DNA of 49,055 nucleotides. Origin: an uncultured Verrucomicrobiota bacterium. GTDB taxonomy: Bacteria; Verrucomicrobiota; Kiritimatiellia; CAIVKH01. The DNA lies in contig CALMUP010000031.1 of the NCBI GenBank assembly GCA_937872895.1, positions 1-49,055 on the forward strand. Direction: 5' to 3'. This document shows positions 1 through 49,055 of the stretch, in pieces; the stretch's first letter is position 1; each line of letters starts with the position of its first letter. A program made the position numbers and the translations under genes. The notes under the pieces were generated by a model. It saw nothing but the letters and a program-made list of their open reading frames with translations, was not told where the DNA came from and did not search any database.

Positions 1-94
1 TCTGCAAGGAATTGGGAACCACCCGGTCCGCAAGGCGGACCTGGAGGACACGGAGAACACAGAGGAAGAACGCAACCGCGGCAGGGTGAGGTTC

Positions 95-121
95 CTGTAG
101 TTCCGGCGATATTCGCCGGAA
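95..121 (+). repeat. REP-type palindrome, family A (single)
   Basis: CTGTAG is followed by a perfect-stem hairpin, TTCCGGCG-ATATT-CGCCGGAA. It is the same palindrome that heads every unit of the array at 7911-8996. The GTAG tetranucleotide next to a palindrome is the hallmark of REP sequences mobilised by RAYT (TnpA-REP) transposases. Confidence 0.75.
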
Positions 122-210
122 GAAGACTGGGAATGGGATCAACTACGGAATACGCGGAAAACGCGGAAAAGATGTGGTTGAGGCCCACAACAATGACGCG
201 TGCATGCCTC

Positions 211-291
211 CTGTAGGCGGGATCGGTGATCCCGCGGATACGGCGCGGGAGATAGAACCGAAACCACCGGGATCGGCGATCCCGGCTACAG
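211..291. repeat. BIME-like pair of inverted REP palindromes, family B
   Basis: The element starts with CTGTAG and a hairpin around GGGATCGGTGATCCC, and ends with a hairpin around GGGATCGGCGATCCC followed by CTACAG. The ends are inverted, as in the family A units, but the hairpin sequence differs. It therefore looks like a second REP family with the same two-hairpin layout. Confidence 0.65.
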
Positions 292-438
292 GGATCACTA
301 CGAACAGCGCGGAAACCACGAGAAGGGGAAGCAGGCACTGACGTCCCGGCGGTCTGCAAGGAATTGGGAACCACCCGGTCCGCAAGGCGGACCTGGAGGA
401 CACGGAGGAAGAGCGCAACCGCGGCAGGGTGAGCGTTC

Positions 439-465
439 CTGTAGTTCCGGCGATATTCGCCGGAA
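439..465 (+). repeat. REP-type palindrome, family A (second single copy)
   Basis: This is the same CTGTAG plus TTCCGGCG/CGCCGGAA hairpin as at 95-121, inside the second copy of the duplicated block. Confidence 0.7.
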
Positions 466-554
466 GAAGACAGGAAATGGGATCAACTACGGAATACGTA
501 GAAAACGCTGAAAGGGTGTGGTTGAGGCCCACAACGATGACGGGTGCATGCCTC

Positions 555-581
555 CTGTAGGCGGGTTCGGCGATCCCGCGG
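555..581 (+). repeat. REP-type palindrome, family B (single)
   Basis: CTGTAG is followed by GCGGGTTCGGCGATCCCGC, a slightly imperfect hairpin matching the first half of the element at 211-291. No inverted partner with CTACAG follows before the promoter of the next gene. Confidence 0.6.
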
Positions 582-629
582 ATGCGGCGGGGAAATTTCA
601 GGGACAGGTTCTGCCGGATGAACTCGGCC

Positions 630-5027: not shown

Positions 5028-7142
5028 ATGAATTATCGAATCCCGCAGACCATCGAACCCATGACCACCCGCCGCCGCACCTCGACCCTGCTGCCCAGTA
5101 TCCCGATGCCGGTGCCCTACGGGGCCCACGTCGTCGAGAGCGGTGTCCAGTTCACCGTCTTCAGCCGGCACGCGACGCGGGTCTGGCTGATGCTGTTCGA
5201 CCACGCCGACGCCGCGGTACCGAGCCAGGAATTCGAACTGACCCCGCAGCACAACCGCATCGGCGACATCTGGCACATCCACCTCCGCGATGCGCGCGCC
5301 GGTCAGTTCTACCTCTACCGCATGGAGGGCGTGGCCGCACCGGGCCTGAAGAACTACTACGACCCGGAGCAGTGGCTGCTCGATCCCTATGCCCTCGCCG
5401 TGGCCGGCCGCAACCAGTGGGGCGACCGCGGCGCGCTGCAGCAGGGCCGGCATCCGAAGAGCGGCCCCGGCCTGCCCAAGGGCGTGATCATCCGCGACGA
5501 CTTCGACTGGTCGCGCGACGTCTCCCCGAACATCCCGTTGCATGAAACGGTCATCTACGAGACCCACCTGCGCGGCTTCACCGCGCATCCCAGCGCGGGC
5601 GTCGGCGCGCCCGGCACCTACGACGGGTTCAAGGCGAAGATCCCCTACCTGCGCGACATGGGCATCACGGCGGTGGAGTTCCTGCCGCTCCAGGAATTCA
5701 ACGAGATGGAGTACTTCGTCGAGAACGGACGGCGCGCCCACCTGAAGAACTACTGGGGCTACAGCACCCTCGCCTTCTTCGCGCCCAACGCCCGCTACGC
5801 CAGCCGCGGCTCGTACGGCCAGCAGGTCACCGAGTTCAAGGACCTGGTCATCGCGCTCCACCAGGCCGGCATCGAGGTCATCCTCGACGTGGTGTTCAAC
5901 CACACCGCGGAGGGCGGCGACGGCGGCCCGACCTACTCGCACCGCGGCATCGACAACTACATCTACTACATGATGGACAAGAGCGGCCGCCACTACATGA
6001 ACTACAGCGGGTGCGGCAACACGGTGAACAGCAACCACCCCGTCGTGCGCTCGTTCATCATGAACTGCCTGCGCTACTGGGTGCTGCACATGCACGTGGA
6101 CGGCTTCCGCTTCGACCTCGCCTCGATCCTGACCCGCGACAAGAACGGGGAGATCCTGCCGAACCCGCCGATCGTGGAGATGATCGCCGAGGATCCGGCC
6201 CTGCGCGATACGAAGATCATCGCCGAAGCCTGGGACGCCGCCGGGGCCTACCAGGTCGGCGAATTCCCCAGCCAGCACTGGTCGGAATGGAACGGGCGCT
6301 ACCGCGACGACGTGCGCCGCTTCTGGAAGGGCGAACGCGGCATGCTCGGCGCCTTCGCGACCCGCCTCGCCGGCAGCGCCGACCTCTACCAGAAGGACGG
6401 CCAGACGCCGCTGAAGAGCATCAACTTCGTGACCTGCCACGACGGCATGACCCTGCGCGACCTCGTCAGCTACGAGCGGAAGCACAACGACCTCAACAAC
6501 GAGGACAACCGCGACGGCGAGAACCACAACCACAGCATGAACTTCGGCCACGAGGGCCCGACCAACGATCCGGCCATCGAGGCGCTGCGCCTGCGCCAGC
6601 AGAAGAACTTCCTCGCCACCCTGTTCCTCTCGCAGGGCGTGCCGATGATGCTGGCCGGCGACGAGATGTCGCACACCCAGAACGGCAACAACAACGCCTA
6701 TTGCCAGGACAACGAACTGTCGTGGATCGACTGGTCGCGGTGCGACCGCCACCAGGACCTGCTGCACTTCACCCGCAAGGCGATCCACCTGCGCAAACGC
6801 TTTCCGAGCCTGCGCCGCACCTCGTTCTTCCACGGCGGCGACCAGCGCGACATCCGCTGGTTCTCACCCGAGGGCGGCGATCCGGATTGGCACCAAAGCC
6901 TCCGCCTGGCCGCATGGATCGGCGGCTCACACCGGTTGACCGGGGCCGCCGAAGACTGCCCGGACCTGTATGTCGTCTTCAACGCCGACGAACAGCCGTG
7001 CGACGTGCGGCTCCCCGACGCGCCCGGAACCCCCTGGATCCTTGAACTTAGCACCAGCGCCACGCCCCCGCCCTGGAAGGAAACCGGCCGGTCGCTGACC
7101 GTCGAAGGCCGCAGCGTGGCCGTATTCGCCTCGTCGGTTTGA
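5028..7142 (+). CDS. glgX: Glycogen debranching enzyme / isoamylase (GH13_11, GlgX type)
   Basis: This enzyme hydrolyses alpha-1,6 branch points of glycogen or limit dextrins in the cytoplasm. The 704-aa product has an N-terminal CBM48-like domain (about 28-125), a GH13 barrel (about 170-600) and a C-terminal beta domain. The GH13 motifs are DVVFNH (287-292), GFRFDLAS with nucleophile D363, IIAEAWD with acid/base E400, and VTCHDG with D472. The HNDLNNEDNRDG stretch is typical of GlgX and TreX. An alternative start at Met12 (5061) would remove 11 poorly conserved residues. No glycogen synthase or branching enzyme lies in the window. The other alpha-glucan enzyme is at 9360. Confidence 0.92.
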   Translation: MNYRIPQTIEPMTTRRRTSTLLPSIPMPVPYGAHVVESGVQFTVFSRHATRVWLMLFDHADAAVPSQEFELTPQHNRIGDIWHIHLRDARAGQFYLYRMEGVAAPGLKNYYDPEQWLLDPYALAVAGRNQWGDRGALQQGRHPKSGPGLPKGVIIRDDFDWSRDVSPNIPLHETVIYETHLRGFTAHPSAGVGAPGTYDGFKAKIPYLRDMGITAVEFLPLQEFNEMEYFVENGRRAHLKNYWGYSTLAFFAPNARYASRGSYGQQVTEFKDLVIALHQAGIEVILDVVFNHTAEGGDGGPTYSHRGIDNYIYYMMDKSGRHYMNYSGCGNTVNSNHPVVRSFIMNCLRYWVLHMHVDGFRFDLASILTRDKNGEILPNPPIVEMIAEDPALRDTKIIAEAWDAAGAYQVGEFPSQHWSEWNGRYRDDVRRFWKGERGMLGAFATRLAGSADLYQKDGQTPLKSINFVTCHDGMTLRDLVSYERKHNDLNNEDNRDGENHNHSMNFGHEGPTNDPAIEALRLRQQKNFLATLFLSQGVPMMLAGDEMSHTQNGNNNAYCQDNELSWIDWSRCDRHQDLLHFTRKAIHLRKRFPSLRRTSFFHGGDQRDIRWFSPEGGDPDWHQSLRLAAWIGGSHRLTGAAEDCPDLYVVFNADEQPCDVRLPDAPGTPWILELSTSATPPPWKETGRSLTVEGRSVAVFASSV

Positions 7143-7201: not shown

Positions 7202-7879
7202 ATGTTTATCGATCCACTCTATCTGATGTTTGCCGTCCCGGGCATGATCCTGGCGATGCTGGCGACCATGAAGGTCAAGAGCACGTTCCACAAGTACGCC
7301 CGCTATGCGTCCTCGTCCGGCATGACCGGCGCGGAGGCGGCCCGGCGCGTGTTGCTCGCCGAAGGCGTGACCGACGTGACCATCGAGATGACCCAGGGCT
7401 TCCTGTCGGACCACTACGATCCGCGCTCGAACACGTTGCGGCTCTCGCCCGACGTGTACAACTCGCCGTCGCTGTCCGCCATCGGCGTGGCCTGCCACGA
7501 GGCCGGGCACGCGCTGCAGAAGGCGCATGACTATGCCCCGCTGACCCTGCGCTCGGCCCTCGTGCCGGTGACCAGCTTCGGCAGCCAGTTGGCCATGCCG
7601 GTGTTCATGATCGGCCTGATGGCCCAGCTTCCGTTCCTGATCAACATCGGCATCCTGCTGTTCATCGGCGTGGTCGCGTTTTCGCTGGTGACCCTGCCGG
7701 TGGAATGGGATGCCAGCGCGCGCGCGAAGCGGCTGATGGTCAAGGCGGGTATCGTCTCGGTCCAGGAACAGGAACACGCCGGCAAGGTGCTGAACGCCGC
7801 CTTCCTGACCTACGTGGCCTCGGCCGTCTCGGCGATCCTGACCCTCGCCTACCTGCTGCTGGTCCGCGACCGGCACTGA
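7202..7879 (+). CDS. YugP-type neutral zinc metallopeptidase (membrane)
   Basis: This is a membrane-embedded zinc protease of the Zn_peptidase_2 family (PF04298), whose substrates are unknown. The 225-aa length is usual. An N-terminal hydrophobic segment (about 5-22) precedes a soluble stretch, then HEAGH at 99-103 with the catalytic Glu100. Two or three membrane segments follow (about 125-165). The LPVEWDAS motif (165-172) supplies the likely third ligand, as in homologues reading LPVEFDAS. The start is supported by GAGG six bases upstream. It lies just before the BIME array, which may form its transcript end. Confidence 0.9.
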   Translation: MFIDPLYLMFAVPGMILAMLATMKVKSTFHKYARYASSSGMTGAEAARRVLLAEGVTDVTIEMTQGFLSDHYDPRSNTLRLSPDVYNSPSLSAIGVACHEAGHALQKAHDYAPLTLRSALVPVTSFGSQLAMPVFMIGLMAQLPFLINIGILLFIGVVAFSLVTLPVEWDASARAKRLMVKAGIVSVQEQEHAGKVLNAAFLTYVASAVSAILTLAYLLLVRDRH

Positions 7880-7910
7880 ACCGCGAGATGTCGCGGATGG
7901 CTCCGGCCTC

Positions 7911-8996
7911 CTGTAGTTCCGGCGATATTCGCCGGAAGGAACGATTCAGCAACGTTGCCGCGTTCGACCCGCTCCCCTCCGGCGTATAACGCCGGAGCTA
8001 CAGGAAATCTTCACGGTGATGGCCGACAGACATTCTGTAGTTCCGGCGATATTCGCCGGAAGGGACGACTCACCAGCGTCAACACGTTCCACCCGCTCCT
8101 CTCCGGCGTGTAACGCCGGAGCTACAGCAAATCTTCGCGGTGATGGCCGACAGACGTTCTGTAGTTCCGGCGATATTCGCCGGATGGAACGATTCAGCAA
8201 CGCTACCACGTTCCACCCGTTCCCCTCCGGCGTGTAACGCCGGAGCTACAGGAAATCTTCACGGTGACGGCCGACAGGTATTCTGTAGTTCCGGCGAAAT
8301 TCGCCGGATGGAACGATTCAGCAACGCTACCACGTTCCACCCGCTCCTCTCCGGCGTGTAACGCCGGAGCTACAGCAAATCTTCGCGGTGATGGCCGACA
8401 GACGTTCTGTAGTTCCGGCGATATTCGCCGGATGGAACGATTCAGCAACGCTACCACGTTCCACCCGTTCCCCTCCGGCGTGTAACGCCGGAGCTACAGG
8501 AAATCTTCACGGTGACGGCCGACAGGTATTCTGTAGTTCCGGCGAAATTCGCCGGATGGAACGATTCAGCAACGCTACCACGTTCCACCCGCTCCTCTCC
8601 GGCGTGTAACGCCGGAGCTACAGCAAATCTTCGCGGTGATGGCCGACAGGTATTCTGTAGTTCCGGCGATATTCGCCGGAAGGGACGACTCACCAGCGTC
8701 AACACGTTCCACCCGCTCCTCTCCGGCGTGTAACGCCGGAGCTACAGCAAATCTTCGCGGTGATGGCCGACAGGTATTCTGTAGTTCCGGCGATATTCGC
8801 CGGAAGAGACGACTCACCAGCGTCAACACGTTCCACCCGCTTCCCTCCGGCGTATAACGCCGGAGCTACAGCAAATCTTCGCGGTGATGTCCGACAGACG
8901 TTCTGTCGTTCCGGCGATATTCGCCGGAAGGGACGATTCAGCAACATTGCCGCGTTCGACCCGCTCCCCTCCGGCGTATAACGCCGGAGCTACAGG
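7911..8996. repeat. Tandem array of nine BIME units (paired REP palindromes), period 124 bp
   Basis: Units begin at 7911, 8035, 8159, 8283, 8407, 8531, 8655, 8779 and 8903. Each has a ~93-bp core that opens with CTGTAG and the hairpin TCCGGCGATATTCGCCGGA, and closes with the hairpin TCCGGCGTGTAACGCCGGA and CTACAG. The ends are therefore inverted. A ~31-bp linker (CAAATCTTCGCGGTGATGGC and similar) separates the cores, and the last unit ends at 8996 without a linker. GTAG beside a palindrome is the REP signature, and two inverted REPs make a BIME. Reading frames of about 73 codons occur in every unit only because of the periodicity. The array fills the whole gap between the zinc peptidase and cutA genes and has no other content. 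Confidence 0.92.
8082..8645. repeat. Higher-order 248-bp dimer duplication inside the BIME array
   Basis: By eye the sequence from about 8082 to 8397 is identical to 8330-8645 at an offset of exactly two units. The marker variant GGCGAAATTCGCC replaces GGCGATATTCGCC only in the units starting at 8283 and 8531. The two-unit block was therefore copied as a whole and recently. Confidence 0.8.
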
Positions 8997-9016
8997 GGAG
9001 GTTCCCAATGGAGTCG

Positions 9017-9343
9017 TTAATCGACCTGTCCGCTCACCCACTCCAGGAACGGTGCGTAGCCGCGGGTCAGCGGCCAGGCGACGATGCAGGGGCATTCGTA
9101 GCCGTGCTTTTCCCGAACGGCGGCCTCGAGGTCGGCGTAGCGTTCCCGGGTGGTCTTGGCGATCAGGGCGACTTCCGACGCGTGTTCGACGCGACCCTTC
9201 CATTCGTAGACCGATTGGATCGGGCCGAGGATGTTGACGCAGGCGGCGACTTTGCGCGCGACGAGGTGATCGGCCAGCGCGGCCGCTTGCTCGGCGTCGG
9301 CGGCGGTGAGGTACACCATCAGGATCTGGGTGGGTTCGCTCAT
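9017..9343 (-). CDS. cutA: CutA1 divalent-cation tolerance protein
   Basis: CutA1 is a small trimeric cytoplasmic protein linked to divalent metal tolerance, though its biochemical role is unsettled. The product is 108 aa from ATG at 9343, a normal family length. A longer frame reaching 9415 has no homology-like content and would overlap the amylase gene. Family features are the ferredoxin-like pattern with VARKVAACVNILGPIQSVYE (about 29-48), the WKG turn, and a C-terminal segment ending FLEWVSGQ. It lies 16 bases downstream of the alpha-amylase gene and is probably the last gene of the purA operon. Confidence 0.92.
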   Translation of the reverse strand: MSEPTQILMVYLTAADAEQAAALADHLVARKVAACVNILGPIQSVYEWKGRVEHASEVALIAKTTRERYADLEAAVREKHGYECPCIVAWPLTRGYAPFLEWVSGQVD

Positions 9344-9359
9344 GTGCCCATCCCACCGG

Positions 9360-11075
9360 TCAGCCCAGTTTCGACACGACCAGCCATCCGCGGGCCGGGA
9401 CCTCGACCGGGCCACGGGCGAGGCTATGCCCGCTCCACAGGTCGACCCCGCGGAACGGGAGGGTCACGGAGGCCGGGATGGTGCCCGCGTTCAGCACAAC
9501 CCGCACCGTGAGGCCGTCGAGCGTCCGGTCGTAGATCAGCACACGCGGGTTCGCGTGGTTGCGCCACACGAGGTCGCCGCGCCGCAGCACGGCATGGGCC
9601 TGACGCATGGCGATGGCGTCCTGGTAGAAGGCGAACAGTTTCCGGTCGGGGGCGCGCGATTTCGCACGCGTCTTGCCGCCGGGCGTATGGGTCTCCGGCT
9701 CGTACCGGATGTCATCCCACAGCATCGCCTGGCGGTCGCACGGATCGTTTGCGCCCCACAGTCCGACTTCGGTTCCGTAGTAGATCATCGGCGCGCCGGG
9801 ATAGGTCATCTGGAAGATGACGGCCTGGCGCAGGGCGGCCAGCGCGGCGGCGTCCGGCTTGGTGGTGCGGAAGGTGCCGCCGTGTTTCACCCGCGACAGG
9901 TGGAAGTACTGGTCGAAGTTCTCGATGGGCAGCAGTTCCGGATTGTTCAGCACGGAGAGCACGCGGCCGACGTCGTGGGAGTCGAACAGGTTCTGCTGCA
10001 CATACGACACCTCGTCCGGGTAGGCGTTGCGCACCAGGTCGAGCGCCTTGCGGAATTCACGCGCGGGCATCGCTTTCTTCGCGTTGCTGAAGAAGCTGAC
10101 CGAGGGAAAGAGCCACATGTAGTTCATGACCGCGTCGAACTCGTCGCCCTTCAGGTAATCCTGGGCGAGGGTCACGATCTCGGCGGTGAGGTAGGCCTCG
10201 GGGTTGATCGACTTCACGTGGCGACGCCATTTCTTCCAGAACCCGTGCGGCACGCAGAAGGCGACGTCGAGACGCCAGCCGTCGATGCCGTCCGACGGGT
10301 CGCCATCCCCGTCGGGATCCATCCAGCGCCGGGTGATATCGAACACGTACGTCCGCACCGCGGGGTGCAGGTCGTTTTCGCTGCGTGCGAGTTCCGGCAG
10401 CGCGGCGTGGCCGAACCAGCCGTCGTAGCTGAACGTCCCGTCGGGATTCCAGCCCTTGAGCTTGTACCAGTTCTTGTAACGCGAGGACTTGCCGTTCTTC
10501 AGCAGGTCGCGGAAGGCGAAGAAATCGCGGCCGGTATGGTTGAACACGCCGTCGAGGATGATGCGCATGCCGCGGCGGTGGACCTCCTTGATCAGCTTGA
10601 GCAGGAACAGGTCGGCCTTGGTCCAGATCCAGGTCGCGGGGTCCTCGGTTTCGCGGGCGGCGGCGAGGCGCTTGAGGTCGCCGGCGCGGTCAGGCCCGAA
10701 ACTCGGATCGACGTGATGGAAGGAGGATCCGTCGTACTTGTGCAGCGACGGCGCATGGAACACCGGGTTCAGGTAGATCGCGGTGATGCCGAGGTCCTGC
10801 AGGTAGTCGAGCTTCTCGAACACACCGACGAGATCGCCGCCGTAGCGCCGCAGGTACACGGAGGAGAAGAAATCGCCGCGCTTCCTTTCCCACGGCTGCT
10901 GGCCATACCAGTCACTCCCCCACGGCATGATCTTCCAGCCGGGGATGGCGCGGTCGGAGAAATCCGCGACGGTCGGATTGCTGCGCGGGGCGCCGTTGCG
11001 GAAACGCTCCGGAAAGATCTGGTACCAGATCGCATCCTTGGCCCAGTCGGGAACAAACTCGGATTTCTTTTTCAT
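9360..11075 (-). CDS. Alpha-amylase family glycosidase (GH13, cyclomaltodextrinase/neopullulanase-like)
   Basis: This GH13 enzyme has 571 aa from ATG at 11075 (MKKKSEF). The 54 residues of the longer frame lack any domain pattern. It hydrolyses or transglycosylates alpha-1,4 and possibly alpha-1,6 glucans. Motifs are ILDGVFNH (173-180), GWRLDVAF with nucleophile D270, LTAEI with acid/base E299, and FDSHD with D368. The acidic DPDGDGDPSDG segment (253-263) before motif II is shared with cyclomaltodextrinase-type enzymes and probably binds calcium. No signal peptide is visible, so it should be cytoplasmic. A beta-sandwich C-terminal domain follows the barrel. It lies 67 bases after rseP on the same strand. 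The exact substrate cannot be fixed. Confidence 0.9.
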   Translation of the reverse strand: MKKKSEFVPDWAKDAIWYQIFPERFRNGAPRSNPTVADFSDRAIPGWKIMPWGSDWYGQQPWERKRGDFFSSVYLRRYGGDLVGVFEKLDYLQDLGITAIYLNPVFHAPSLHKYDGSSFHHVDPSFGPDRAGDLKRLAAARETEDPATWIWTKADLFLLKLIKEVHRRGMRIILDGVFNHTGRDFFAFRDLLKNGKSSRYKNWYKLKGWNPDGTFSYDGWFGHAALPELARSENDLHPAVRTYVFDITRRWMDPDGDGDPSDGIDGWRLDVAFCVPHGFWKKWRRHVKSINPEAYLTAEIVTLAQDYLKGDEFDAVMNYMWLFPSVSFFSNAKKAMPAREFRKALDLVRNAYPDEVSYVQQNLFDSHDVGRVLSVLNNPELLPIENFDQYFHLSRVKHGGTFRTTKPDAAALAALRQAVIFQMTYPGAPMIYYGTEVGLWGANDPCDRQAMLWDDIRYEPETHTPGGKTRAKSRAPDRKLFAFYQDAIAMRQAHAVLRRGDLVWRNHANPRVLIYDRTLDGLTVRVVLNAGTIPASVTLPFRGVDLWSGHSLARGPVEVPARGWLVVSKLG

Positions 11076-38000: not shown

Positions 38001-41000
38001 CGGAGAAACTGTTTGACCACAGGACACCGTTCAGGATGCGCACACTGGGTTCGATGCCCTGGGCGAAGGGACGCATCAGCACGGCGGCACTGTCCGACCG
38101 GTTGGTCACATCCTGTACCACGATGCGCTGCAGGACGACGTTGGTGGAGCTCTCCACGAAGAACCCGCTGACCAGCAGGTTGGCGCCGGCATCGGAGATG
38201 TTGGCGGCCGAACGGTAGTGGATCGCCTCATAGGTGATGTTGGTGGATCCACGGATGACAAATCCGCGGGTGCCGTTGGTGACGAGGAGGTCGCGGAAGA
38301 GGTAATTGGCCAGGCCGTTGGCGGTGATGACCGGTCCCTGTCGTCCAAGGTTGATGCGCGTGCCCCCGGCGGCGGAGTTGGTGCTGCCTTGAACGACGAC
38401 CGGGTTGGTGACGACGGTGCTGCTGTAGTTGGCATCGAGGGTCACGGTGTTGGTAAAGGAATAGGACCCGGTATCGATCAATACGCGGTCACCCGGCGCC
38501 GGGATGTAACGGGTGAAGATATCGCGCAGGCTGGCCACCGGCGTCGCCGCGGTCAGGCCATCGTTGGTCGAATTTCCGATGGCGGTGGTGTACACATCCC
38601 CGGTCGTGCTGGCATCGTTGATATAGTAGGTGATGGCACCGTTGTTCAGGGTAAAGGCAACGGCGGAGGTGGCCGCTACCGAGGGATCGGTCTGGCTGGT
38701 TATGCGCCACCGGCCCAGCGGCGTGGAAGGGAAGCTGGCGCTGTCCCACAGGTAGGAACCGGCGGAAGCGGCCAGGTTGGTGCCGATGTTCGTCCAGGTC
38801 ACGCCGTTGTCGAAGGAGTAATCGACAAACACCTGGTGCCCGGTTACCGCGCTGTTGGCGAACCAGAAGAACACATTGGTTCCCCGCATCGTGCCCCCGT
38901 TGTTCAAGGTCAAGGTGAGCAACAAACCGTTGGTCGGACTCATGCTGGCTTCGGGATGGTTGCCGTACAGGCCGATGTTGATCCGACCGCCATTGGGCGC
39001 GGGTTCGGCGGCGAACGCAAAGGAGGGATCACCGGCATCGATCATGACCGAACTGACCAGGTCGGTCGCGAGGGCACAACCGGCGCTTATGAAACGACCG
39101 GCGGTGCTTTGAAGATGGAAGTCGCGGGTGGCCGGATTGACAAAACCGGCGGAATGGCTCAGCGAGCGAAGGTCGTTGGTGGTGGACTGTTGCCAACTGG
39201 ACAGGAATTTCAGGAGCTTGCCGTTGAGCGAGGCGACATCGGCGAGATCATCGGCGAGGATGTTGTTGTAATCCGAACGGAACACGCCATCCACGGTGCC
39301 GATGAATACCGAACGGCCCTCCCCGGCGACCTGGAGCACGTTGTTGGTCAGGTTGACCGAACCACCGAGGATACGCACGGCGCTGCCGCCGTTGGACCAG
39401 ATCACCGAATTCAACACGCGGGTTGCGGCATTGGACAGGCCGAACCAGCCGGATCCGTTGTGGGCGAACGCGGAGCGGCGGAAGGTGATGCCGGATCCGT
39501 TGCGCATGTCAACGGCATTGGTCACGGAGTTGTACACCCGCAATCCATCGAAGGTCAGGTTCTCGCCCCGGTCGGAACGGATGCCTGAACCGGCCTGGCG
39601 GATGATGATGTTCGAGACGGCGATGTGTTTGGCGTTGGTCATGAACAGGCCCGAGCCTGCGGCGTTCAGGTTACCGGAGAGTTCAACCAGTGGTTCACCC
39701 ACCCCGCTGCAGAGCGTCGCGCCGACGATGCTGATGGACGAGGTGGCTATGCCCTGGTCGAGCGGACCGATCACGACGCCGCTGCCGACCGAGTAGATTC
39801 CGTTATCGATGCGGATGGTGTCGCCACCTTCCAGGTCGAACCGGTCGAACACCGCGGACAGGGAGTTCAGCGGGCGATTGGATGTGGCCACCCAGTTGGT
39901 CGCGGATCCGGCCGAGGTGGTGAAAACATCGCCTACGGTCGAGGCATTGTTCACGAAGAAGGTCAACGGCTGGTTGCGCACCGAGAAGAAATTCGTGGTC
40001 TGGTTGAAGAGGTTGGTGTTGTCCAGCGAGGTCACCCGCCACAGGCCGGGGGCGAACGAATTGGTGGCCAGGGTATTCCAGGCAATCGACTCCGCAGCAG
40101 CGAGTGTCCCGGTCGAGAGCTGGTTCCACGTCTCACCACCATCCGGGGAAACCTCCACCCGCACCAGCGCGCCGGTGGCGAGGCCGGAGGCGACCCAGTG
40201 CAGGGTCGCGGTGCCGCGGACCCACCCGCCCTGGGTCAGGTTGGCGGCAAAGAGCCGGGCGAAGTCCACCCGGCTGGCTTCGATCGTGTTGCCGAACACG
40301 CCGATGTTGATCCGGCCTCCGTTGGGGGCGGTTTCGTTGGAGAAATCAGCGGTCGGATCGCCGGCATCGATCAGCGGGGAGGTCGTGGTGTCGGTGGTCC
40401 AGCCGAGAATCGGATCAAACCGCCCCTGTACGGTCTGGCTGCGCGGATGGAAATCACCGCTGTTGGGATTGGCGAATTGAGGATCCAGATCGGTGGAGAA
40501 ACGGTCCTGACCGGTTTCAGACTGCCAGGCCCCGAGGGTATTGATGTCGCGACCCGCGCCAGCGAGGTTGGCGATGGAGGCATTGTTCTCGAGGTAATAA
40601 CTATTGTAGTCGGCCGTTACATTGGTTGTGCCGGGCACGCCATAAATGGCCGAGGAGGATCCGCGTGCGGCGAAGGCGCTGTTGGTCACCAACAGCCGGG
40701 CACCGGTGGTACGCACCGCATTCGAGGCATTCATCCAGAATACGGAATGGGCAATGGTGATGTTGCTGCCGCCGCTGACCTGCAAGCCGTCGAGGGCGTT
40801 CTGGCGACTCACCACATACCGCAACACGATATCGCTGGCGTTGTTGAGCAAGACACCATTCAGGAAATTGGTTTCCAGGTTGATCCGCTCGAGCAGGATA
40901 CGGCTGGCGCCGGATATGGATATGCCGTGGGTGCGGCGCTGGATGGTCAGGTCGCGCAAGGCGAAGTCCTGAAGGCCGGACGACAAGGTAAAGGCCGGCG

Positions 41001-48939: not shown

Positions 48940-49055
48940 GGGGGGGGGGGGGGGGGGGGGGGCGGGGGGAAGAAAACCCGCGGGGAGGGGGGCGGCCTCC
49001 CGTGCTGGTGAAAACGACGCCCGCGAAGGGGTGGGCGGAAACAGACAGTCCCCCC
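48940..49055. other. Poly-G run and low-complexity contig end (probable artefact)
   Basis: There are 23 consecutive G (48940-48962), then a G-rich stretch and sequence of different texture ending in CCCCC. It breaks a conserved reading frame. Long poly-G is typical of two-colour Illumina dark-cycle reads extended at a contig end. No gene is called here. Confidence 0.75.

Follow-up and report, generated by a model that had tools for sequence, protein, structure and literature searches.

The intergenic space between a neutral zinc metallopeptidase gene and the convergent cutA gene of an uncultured Verrucomicrobiota bacterium is filled by a tandem array of REPINs (BIMEs), each made up of two inverted REPs of the GTAG type. 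The window, i.e. the whole stretch of 49,055 nucleotides analysed here, corresponds to contig C31 in a draft genome of 3.87 Mb and 51 contigs. It is highly probable that the array belongs to a REPIN population spread by a REP-associated tyrosine transposase (RAYT), and that the copy at this locus was amplified locally, together with 31 bp of flanking DNA, by unequal recombination or slippage. Arrays of this type are already known in bacteria; the present one is unusually long and regular. Its parts and surroundings, in positions of the window, are:

95 to 120 and 439 to 464, + strand: two further single REP copies, in a composite repeat (95 to 466) at the contig end
7202 to 7879, + strand: neutral zinc metallopeptidase gene (Zn_peptidase_2; PF04298, E 5.5e-84), stopping 31 bp before the array
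7911 to 8995, no strand: tandem array with a 124-bp period, in which eight 31-bp linkers separate nine 93-bp REPINs (TRF and unit comparison)
7911 to 7937, + strand: T-type REP of unit 1, CTGTAG followed by the hairpin TTCCGGCGA-TAT-TCGCCGGAA, recurring every 124 bp (direct reading, pattern match and fold)
7977 to 8003, - strand: inverted C-type REP of unit 1, CTGTAG followed by CTCCGGCGT-TAT-ACGCCGGAG, recurring every 124 bp (direct reading and pattern match)
8004 to 8034, no strand: first of the eight 31-bp linkers, matched only partially (to query base 110) in the rest of the genome
8159 to 8654, no strand: units 3 to 6, a 248-bp two-unit duplication (unit comparison)
8903 to 8995, no strand: terminal unit 9, with CTGTCG as mutated left tag and without a following linker
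9017 to 9343, - strand: cutA (divalent-ion tolerance; PF03091, E 1.9e-34), convergent, its end 21 bp past the array

TRF reported a single array at 7911-8995, with a period of 124 bp, 8.8 copies, 91% matches, 0% indels and a score of 1694. Cut in register, it consists of nine 93-bp REPINs (CTGTAG...CTACAG) separated by eight 31-bp linkers, i.e. n REPINs and n-1 linkers, a length derived from a draft assembly. Both results agree with the nine units, strict 124-bp period and 31-bp linker described in the initial annotation, which had placed the end of the array at 8996 instead of 8995. The BIME architecture proposed there, two inverted GTAG-type REPs per unit, was borne out as well: each unit comprises a T-type REP and an inverted C-type REP with both GTAG tags pointing outward, and 17 of the 18 REPs fit the strict pattern. 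The exception is the left end of unit 9, so that the CTGTAG described at the start of every unit is present in units 1-8 and replaced by CTGTCG in unit 9. Across units the T-type REP reads CTGTAG-TTCCGGCGA-TAT-TCGCCGGAA, with T as final stem base in units 3-6, and the C-type REP reads CTGTAG-CTCCGGCGT-TAY-ACGCCGGAG. In a single REP, GTAG runs straight into a hairpin with a stem of 9 bp and a loop of 3 nt; a 30-nt piece with the T-type REP of unit 1 folds at -14.9 kcal/mol.

The array REP is dispersed throughout the genome. The strict pattern has 93 exact matches, compared to none for a reversed control pattern, and these form 38 clusters on 21 contigs, with 17 of the matches belonging to the nine-unit array. 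The initial annotation had itself raised a purely local satellite, lacking copies elsewhere, as the finding that would speak against a mobile element, and this objection fails on the 93 exact copies. Coding sequence makes up 71% of the DNA examined, yet all 81 distinct copies fall outside called genes. The gene calls come from a simple codon-usage caller that had been trained on the window, and the copies within the array are not independent. At the positions that the search pattern left free (outer pair, closing pair and loop), 84 copies compare as follows: 44 have T-A and 36 have C-G as outer stem pair (80 of 84 together), every copy has T-A, A-T or C-G as closing pair, and 83 have a T-R-Y loop (TAT, TGT, TAC or TGC). 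Such compensatory changes support a maintained hairpin with a strand-specific loop. Inverted HH dimers, of which 22 are distinct, are nearly all 85 or 92-93 bp long and are found again at further loci, where the spacers differ. Dispersal without matches in the control, absence from genes, stem covariation and recurring dimers all argue for the spread of a REPIN. In its combination of GTAG with a hairpin-forming palindrome, many dispersed copies and an extragenic position, the array REP corresponds to a GTAG-type REP; an inverted, tag-outward pair recurring as a unit, in a genome that also contains a RAYT gene, corresponds to a REPIN or BIME. The 93-bp inverted pair would then be a non-autonomous REPIN, spread via a RAYT acting as a single-strand HUH tyrosine transposase.

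Contig C23 begins with another array of the array REP family (C23:40-686), which has six or more units and likewise a 124-bp period, and related pieces lie at the start or end of contigs C12 and C48. Overall, 15 of the 38 clusters are within 700 bp of a contig end, compared to about 0.7 expected (binomial tail 1e-16). The assembly thus breaks at these repeats, and the copy counts given here are minima. A single REP also occurs three times within a 192-bp tandem repeat at G000:C22:131948-132360.

Clues on the growth of the array were obtained from comparison of its units. Units 3 and 5 are identical (124/124 bases), units 4 and 6 are identical over a 94-base core and differ by 3 over the full compared unit, units 2 and 7 show no difference over the 94-base core, and the outer units 1 and 9 show 3 differences in 94. 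This pattern of identities and near-identity points to higher-order duplication. The eight linkers represent five sequence types; no other part of the genome matches the 31-bp linker in full, and for a possible derivation of the linker from the array's outer flanks the best local match has p ~0.05 in shuffles. Taken together, the unit identities and the local linker bear the signature of unequal recombination or slippage at this locus, proceeding partly in two-unit steps, and the local linker and the 248-bp duplications count in favour of local amplification. One or two REPINs may thus have inserted in the convergent intergenic region between the zinc peptidase gene and cutA, and a REPIN with 31 bp of neighbouring DNA would then have been amplified to nine copies, one or two units per step, presumably through replication slippage or unequal recombination. 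A satellite that is purely local and has no mobile history would also account for a linker restricted to the array locus and for the local homogenisation of the array. It is nevertheless extremely improbable given the 93 copies of the REP across the genome and the inverted pairs at many loci: it is ruled out for the REP itself and applies to the amplification step only.

Alternatively, the tandem copies could stem not from recombination but from a RAYT inserting again and again at a fixed distance. This would fit the count of n REPINs with n-1 linkers, as well as the 124-bp period of the second array of the family, which has other spacer and linker lengths. We consider it improbable, since the linkers are copies of each other and two-unit blocks have been duplicated, and since arrays next to other RAYTs show different periods, e.g. 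93 and 162 bp. These latter periods, found in RAYT-adjacent arrays of relatives, also led us to reject a general 124-bp period rule, and the period common to the two arrays is probably a coincidence.

Tandem clustering of REPINs has precedents. Tandem REPIN clusters including flanking sequence are known in P. fluorescens SBW25 (PMC3116915), where the mobile unit is likewise a pair of inverted GTAG REPs with a spacer; stem and loop sequences are unrelated to those of the array, and the largest cluster has four REPINs, compared to nine here, in keeping with the initial view that nine units is long for a BIME cluster. Many GTAG families feature dimers repeated in tandem with flanking DNA, including families of Opitutus terrae, a member of the Verrucomicrobia (PMC3733652). 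The O. terrae repeats resemble the array in belonging to the PVC superphylum, in their tandem dimers with flanking DNA and in being mostly intergenic. However, the GTAG-17/19 dimers of O. terrae have 1-2 bp spacers, and O. terrae carries many copies within genes (PMC3733652), whereas the array family has long spacers and no copy in a called gene. The BIMEs of E. coli share the tandem arrangement of alternating inverted REPs, but there the REP palindromes are imperfect and bulged (group 2, PMC8266576), unlike the perfect stems of the array REP. The length of SMAG clusters varies between S. maltophilia isolates (PMC2613905).

A RAYT gene was predicted for this genome by the initial annotation, and six loci indeed exceed the cut-off of NCBIfam NF047646 (REP-associated tyrosine transposase). 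In a search of about 1.5 kb on each side of the RAYTs, the array REP was found near only one of them, at C30:23369-23848 (160 aa, HVH motif, Tyr at 130 in the RAYT position, E 2e-33). Three array-type copies, one with a mismatch, lie on the 3' side of this gene, about 120-700 bp beyond its end, and they count in favour of RAYT-mediated spread. The immediate flanks of the gene, on both sides, are occupied by a different REP family, CTGTAG-NCGGGAYC-GGT-GRTCCCG, with 45 copies genome-wide, and the RAYTs on contigs C3 and C16 each have their own GTAG families. The further expectation of a TnpA-REP gene flanked by the same palindrome was therefore disappointed: the array REP is near the C30 gene, but the brackets are of another family, and no RAYT in the genome is directly bracketed by the array REP in the manner of a REPtron. 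This, together with the GGT loops and other stems at the nearest RAYT, weighs against spread by a RAYT. Like the array REP, REPtron Sm of S. maltophilia (group 3 TnpAREP, PMC8266576) has GTAG immediately ahead of a short, perfect hairpin (8-bp stem, 3-nt loop). Its loop is GCT, and the loop guanine is essential, being required for cleavage (PMC8266576); the array REP, in contrast, has a 9-bp stem and T-R-Y loops, and it is the REP family next to the C30 RAYT that carries, in its GGT loops, a loop G as in REPtron Sm. Relatives of the C30 RAYT across the class (48-59% identity) lie mostly among G-N-T-loop REPs, as read from the listed sequences, and a relative is present in 71 of 146 sampled class genomes, i.e. 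about half.

With T-R-Y loops in the array REP and G-N-T loops around the C30 RAYT, the cognate RAYT of the array REP is unproven. The array REP may be mobilised in trans, or its RAYT may have been lost or may lie in an assembly gap. It is tempting to speculate, though we regard this as rather doubtful, that an abundant REP family is non-cognate to any RAYT of the genome, carried in trans or orphaned, while its REPINs still amplify locally into arrays, and two of these arrays have the same 124-bp period despite different spacer and linker lengths. The mismatch between the loops of the array and those at the only nearby RAYT offers a direct test of the strictness of RAYT-REP pairing. Among relatives, RAYTs are seen within regular REP arrays of their own at L161 and L166 (G004:C3, 372 kb and 378 kb) and L165 (G001:C67), with periods of about 162, 221 and 93 bp. 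A pair of almost identical RAYT-type genes about 1.3 kb apart (C30:37846-38226 and 39171-39551, in locus L195, G000:C30:36800-40600) is flanked by GGGCACGC-GGA-GCGTGCCC palindromes, which are not GTAG REPs; the pair resembles the TIR-associated transposases of the literature.

The initial annotation placed the array after the zinc peptidase gene. The identity of that gene as Zn_peptidase_2 was confirmed, but since the two flanking genes are convergent, the array is also 3' of cutA. Its position, 31 bp from the stop codon of the zinc peptidase gene and 21 bp from that of cutA, would suit an element kept for its effect on RNA, blocking read-through or protecting the 3' ends of the convergent zinc-peptidase and cutA mRNAs. 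Each REPIN as RNA is predicted to fold into one long hairpin (about -53 kcal/mol on the + strand and about -56 on the - strand), and REPs have been reported chiefly downstream of genes (PMC3733652). An RNA-level effect of such a hairpin chain on the convergent transcripts is plausible. That the array is maintained for this role seems rather unlikely, however: 7500-9500 contains no intrinsic terminator, i.e. no G+C-rich hairpin with a T run behind it, no Rfam match was obtained within the window, nine copies are unnecessary for such a role, and the array is missing from the orthologous place of a congener. A gyrase- or IHF-type binding platform, by analogy with BIME-2 and BIME-1 of E. coli, would be a very improbable function: stem, loop and linkers lend no sequence support to such a site, and the two arrays of the genome differ in linkers and spacers. 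Binding of gyrase or IHF to the array is thus unsupported.

The relatives of the zinc peptidase assign the organism to the PVC group: it has 84% identity to that of an 'uncultured Verrucomicrobia' MAG, followed by relatives in Kiritimatiellae MAGs. A xanthomonad affiliation, which the style of the sequence had suggested, was rejected in view of these relatives. Of the 346 class genomes, one contains the array REP family; the congener G001 lacks it. The zinc-peptidase match of this congener lies on contig 103, at coordinates that agree with locus L079, and its orthologous intergene has no blastn similarity to the array, which again favours the spread of a REPIN; instead it has one REP, GTAGGCCGGGGCTCTGTCCCCGGC, which belongs to a different family. 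By eye, the congener intergene (L079, about 5240-5900) also appears to contain a HigB/HigA-like toxin-antitoxin pair. Four look-alike matches to the REP in G005 have a 6-nt loop and were assigned to another family. A literature search yielded no paper pairing 'REP-associated tyrosine transposase' with 'Kiritimatiell'. The present family adds a well-resolved, species-specific REPIN family to a PVC lineage (nearest Kiritimatiellia) in which REPs have barely been described, and the array is among the longer ordered REPIN arrays.

The composite repeat at the start of the window (1-592) is duplicated with a spacing of about 344 bp, and short-period A/G-rich repeats (e.g. GAACTACGGAATACGCGGAAAACGCGGAAAA and GGAGGACACGGAG) are interleaved with several REP families in window 1-620, in L072 and in L066 1-560. 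Near the other contig end, a stretch of some 30 G that includes one C (48940-48969), possibly an assembly or sequencing artefact, is followed by G-rich sequence.
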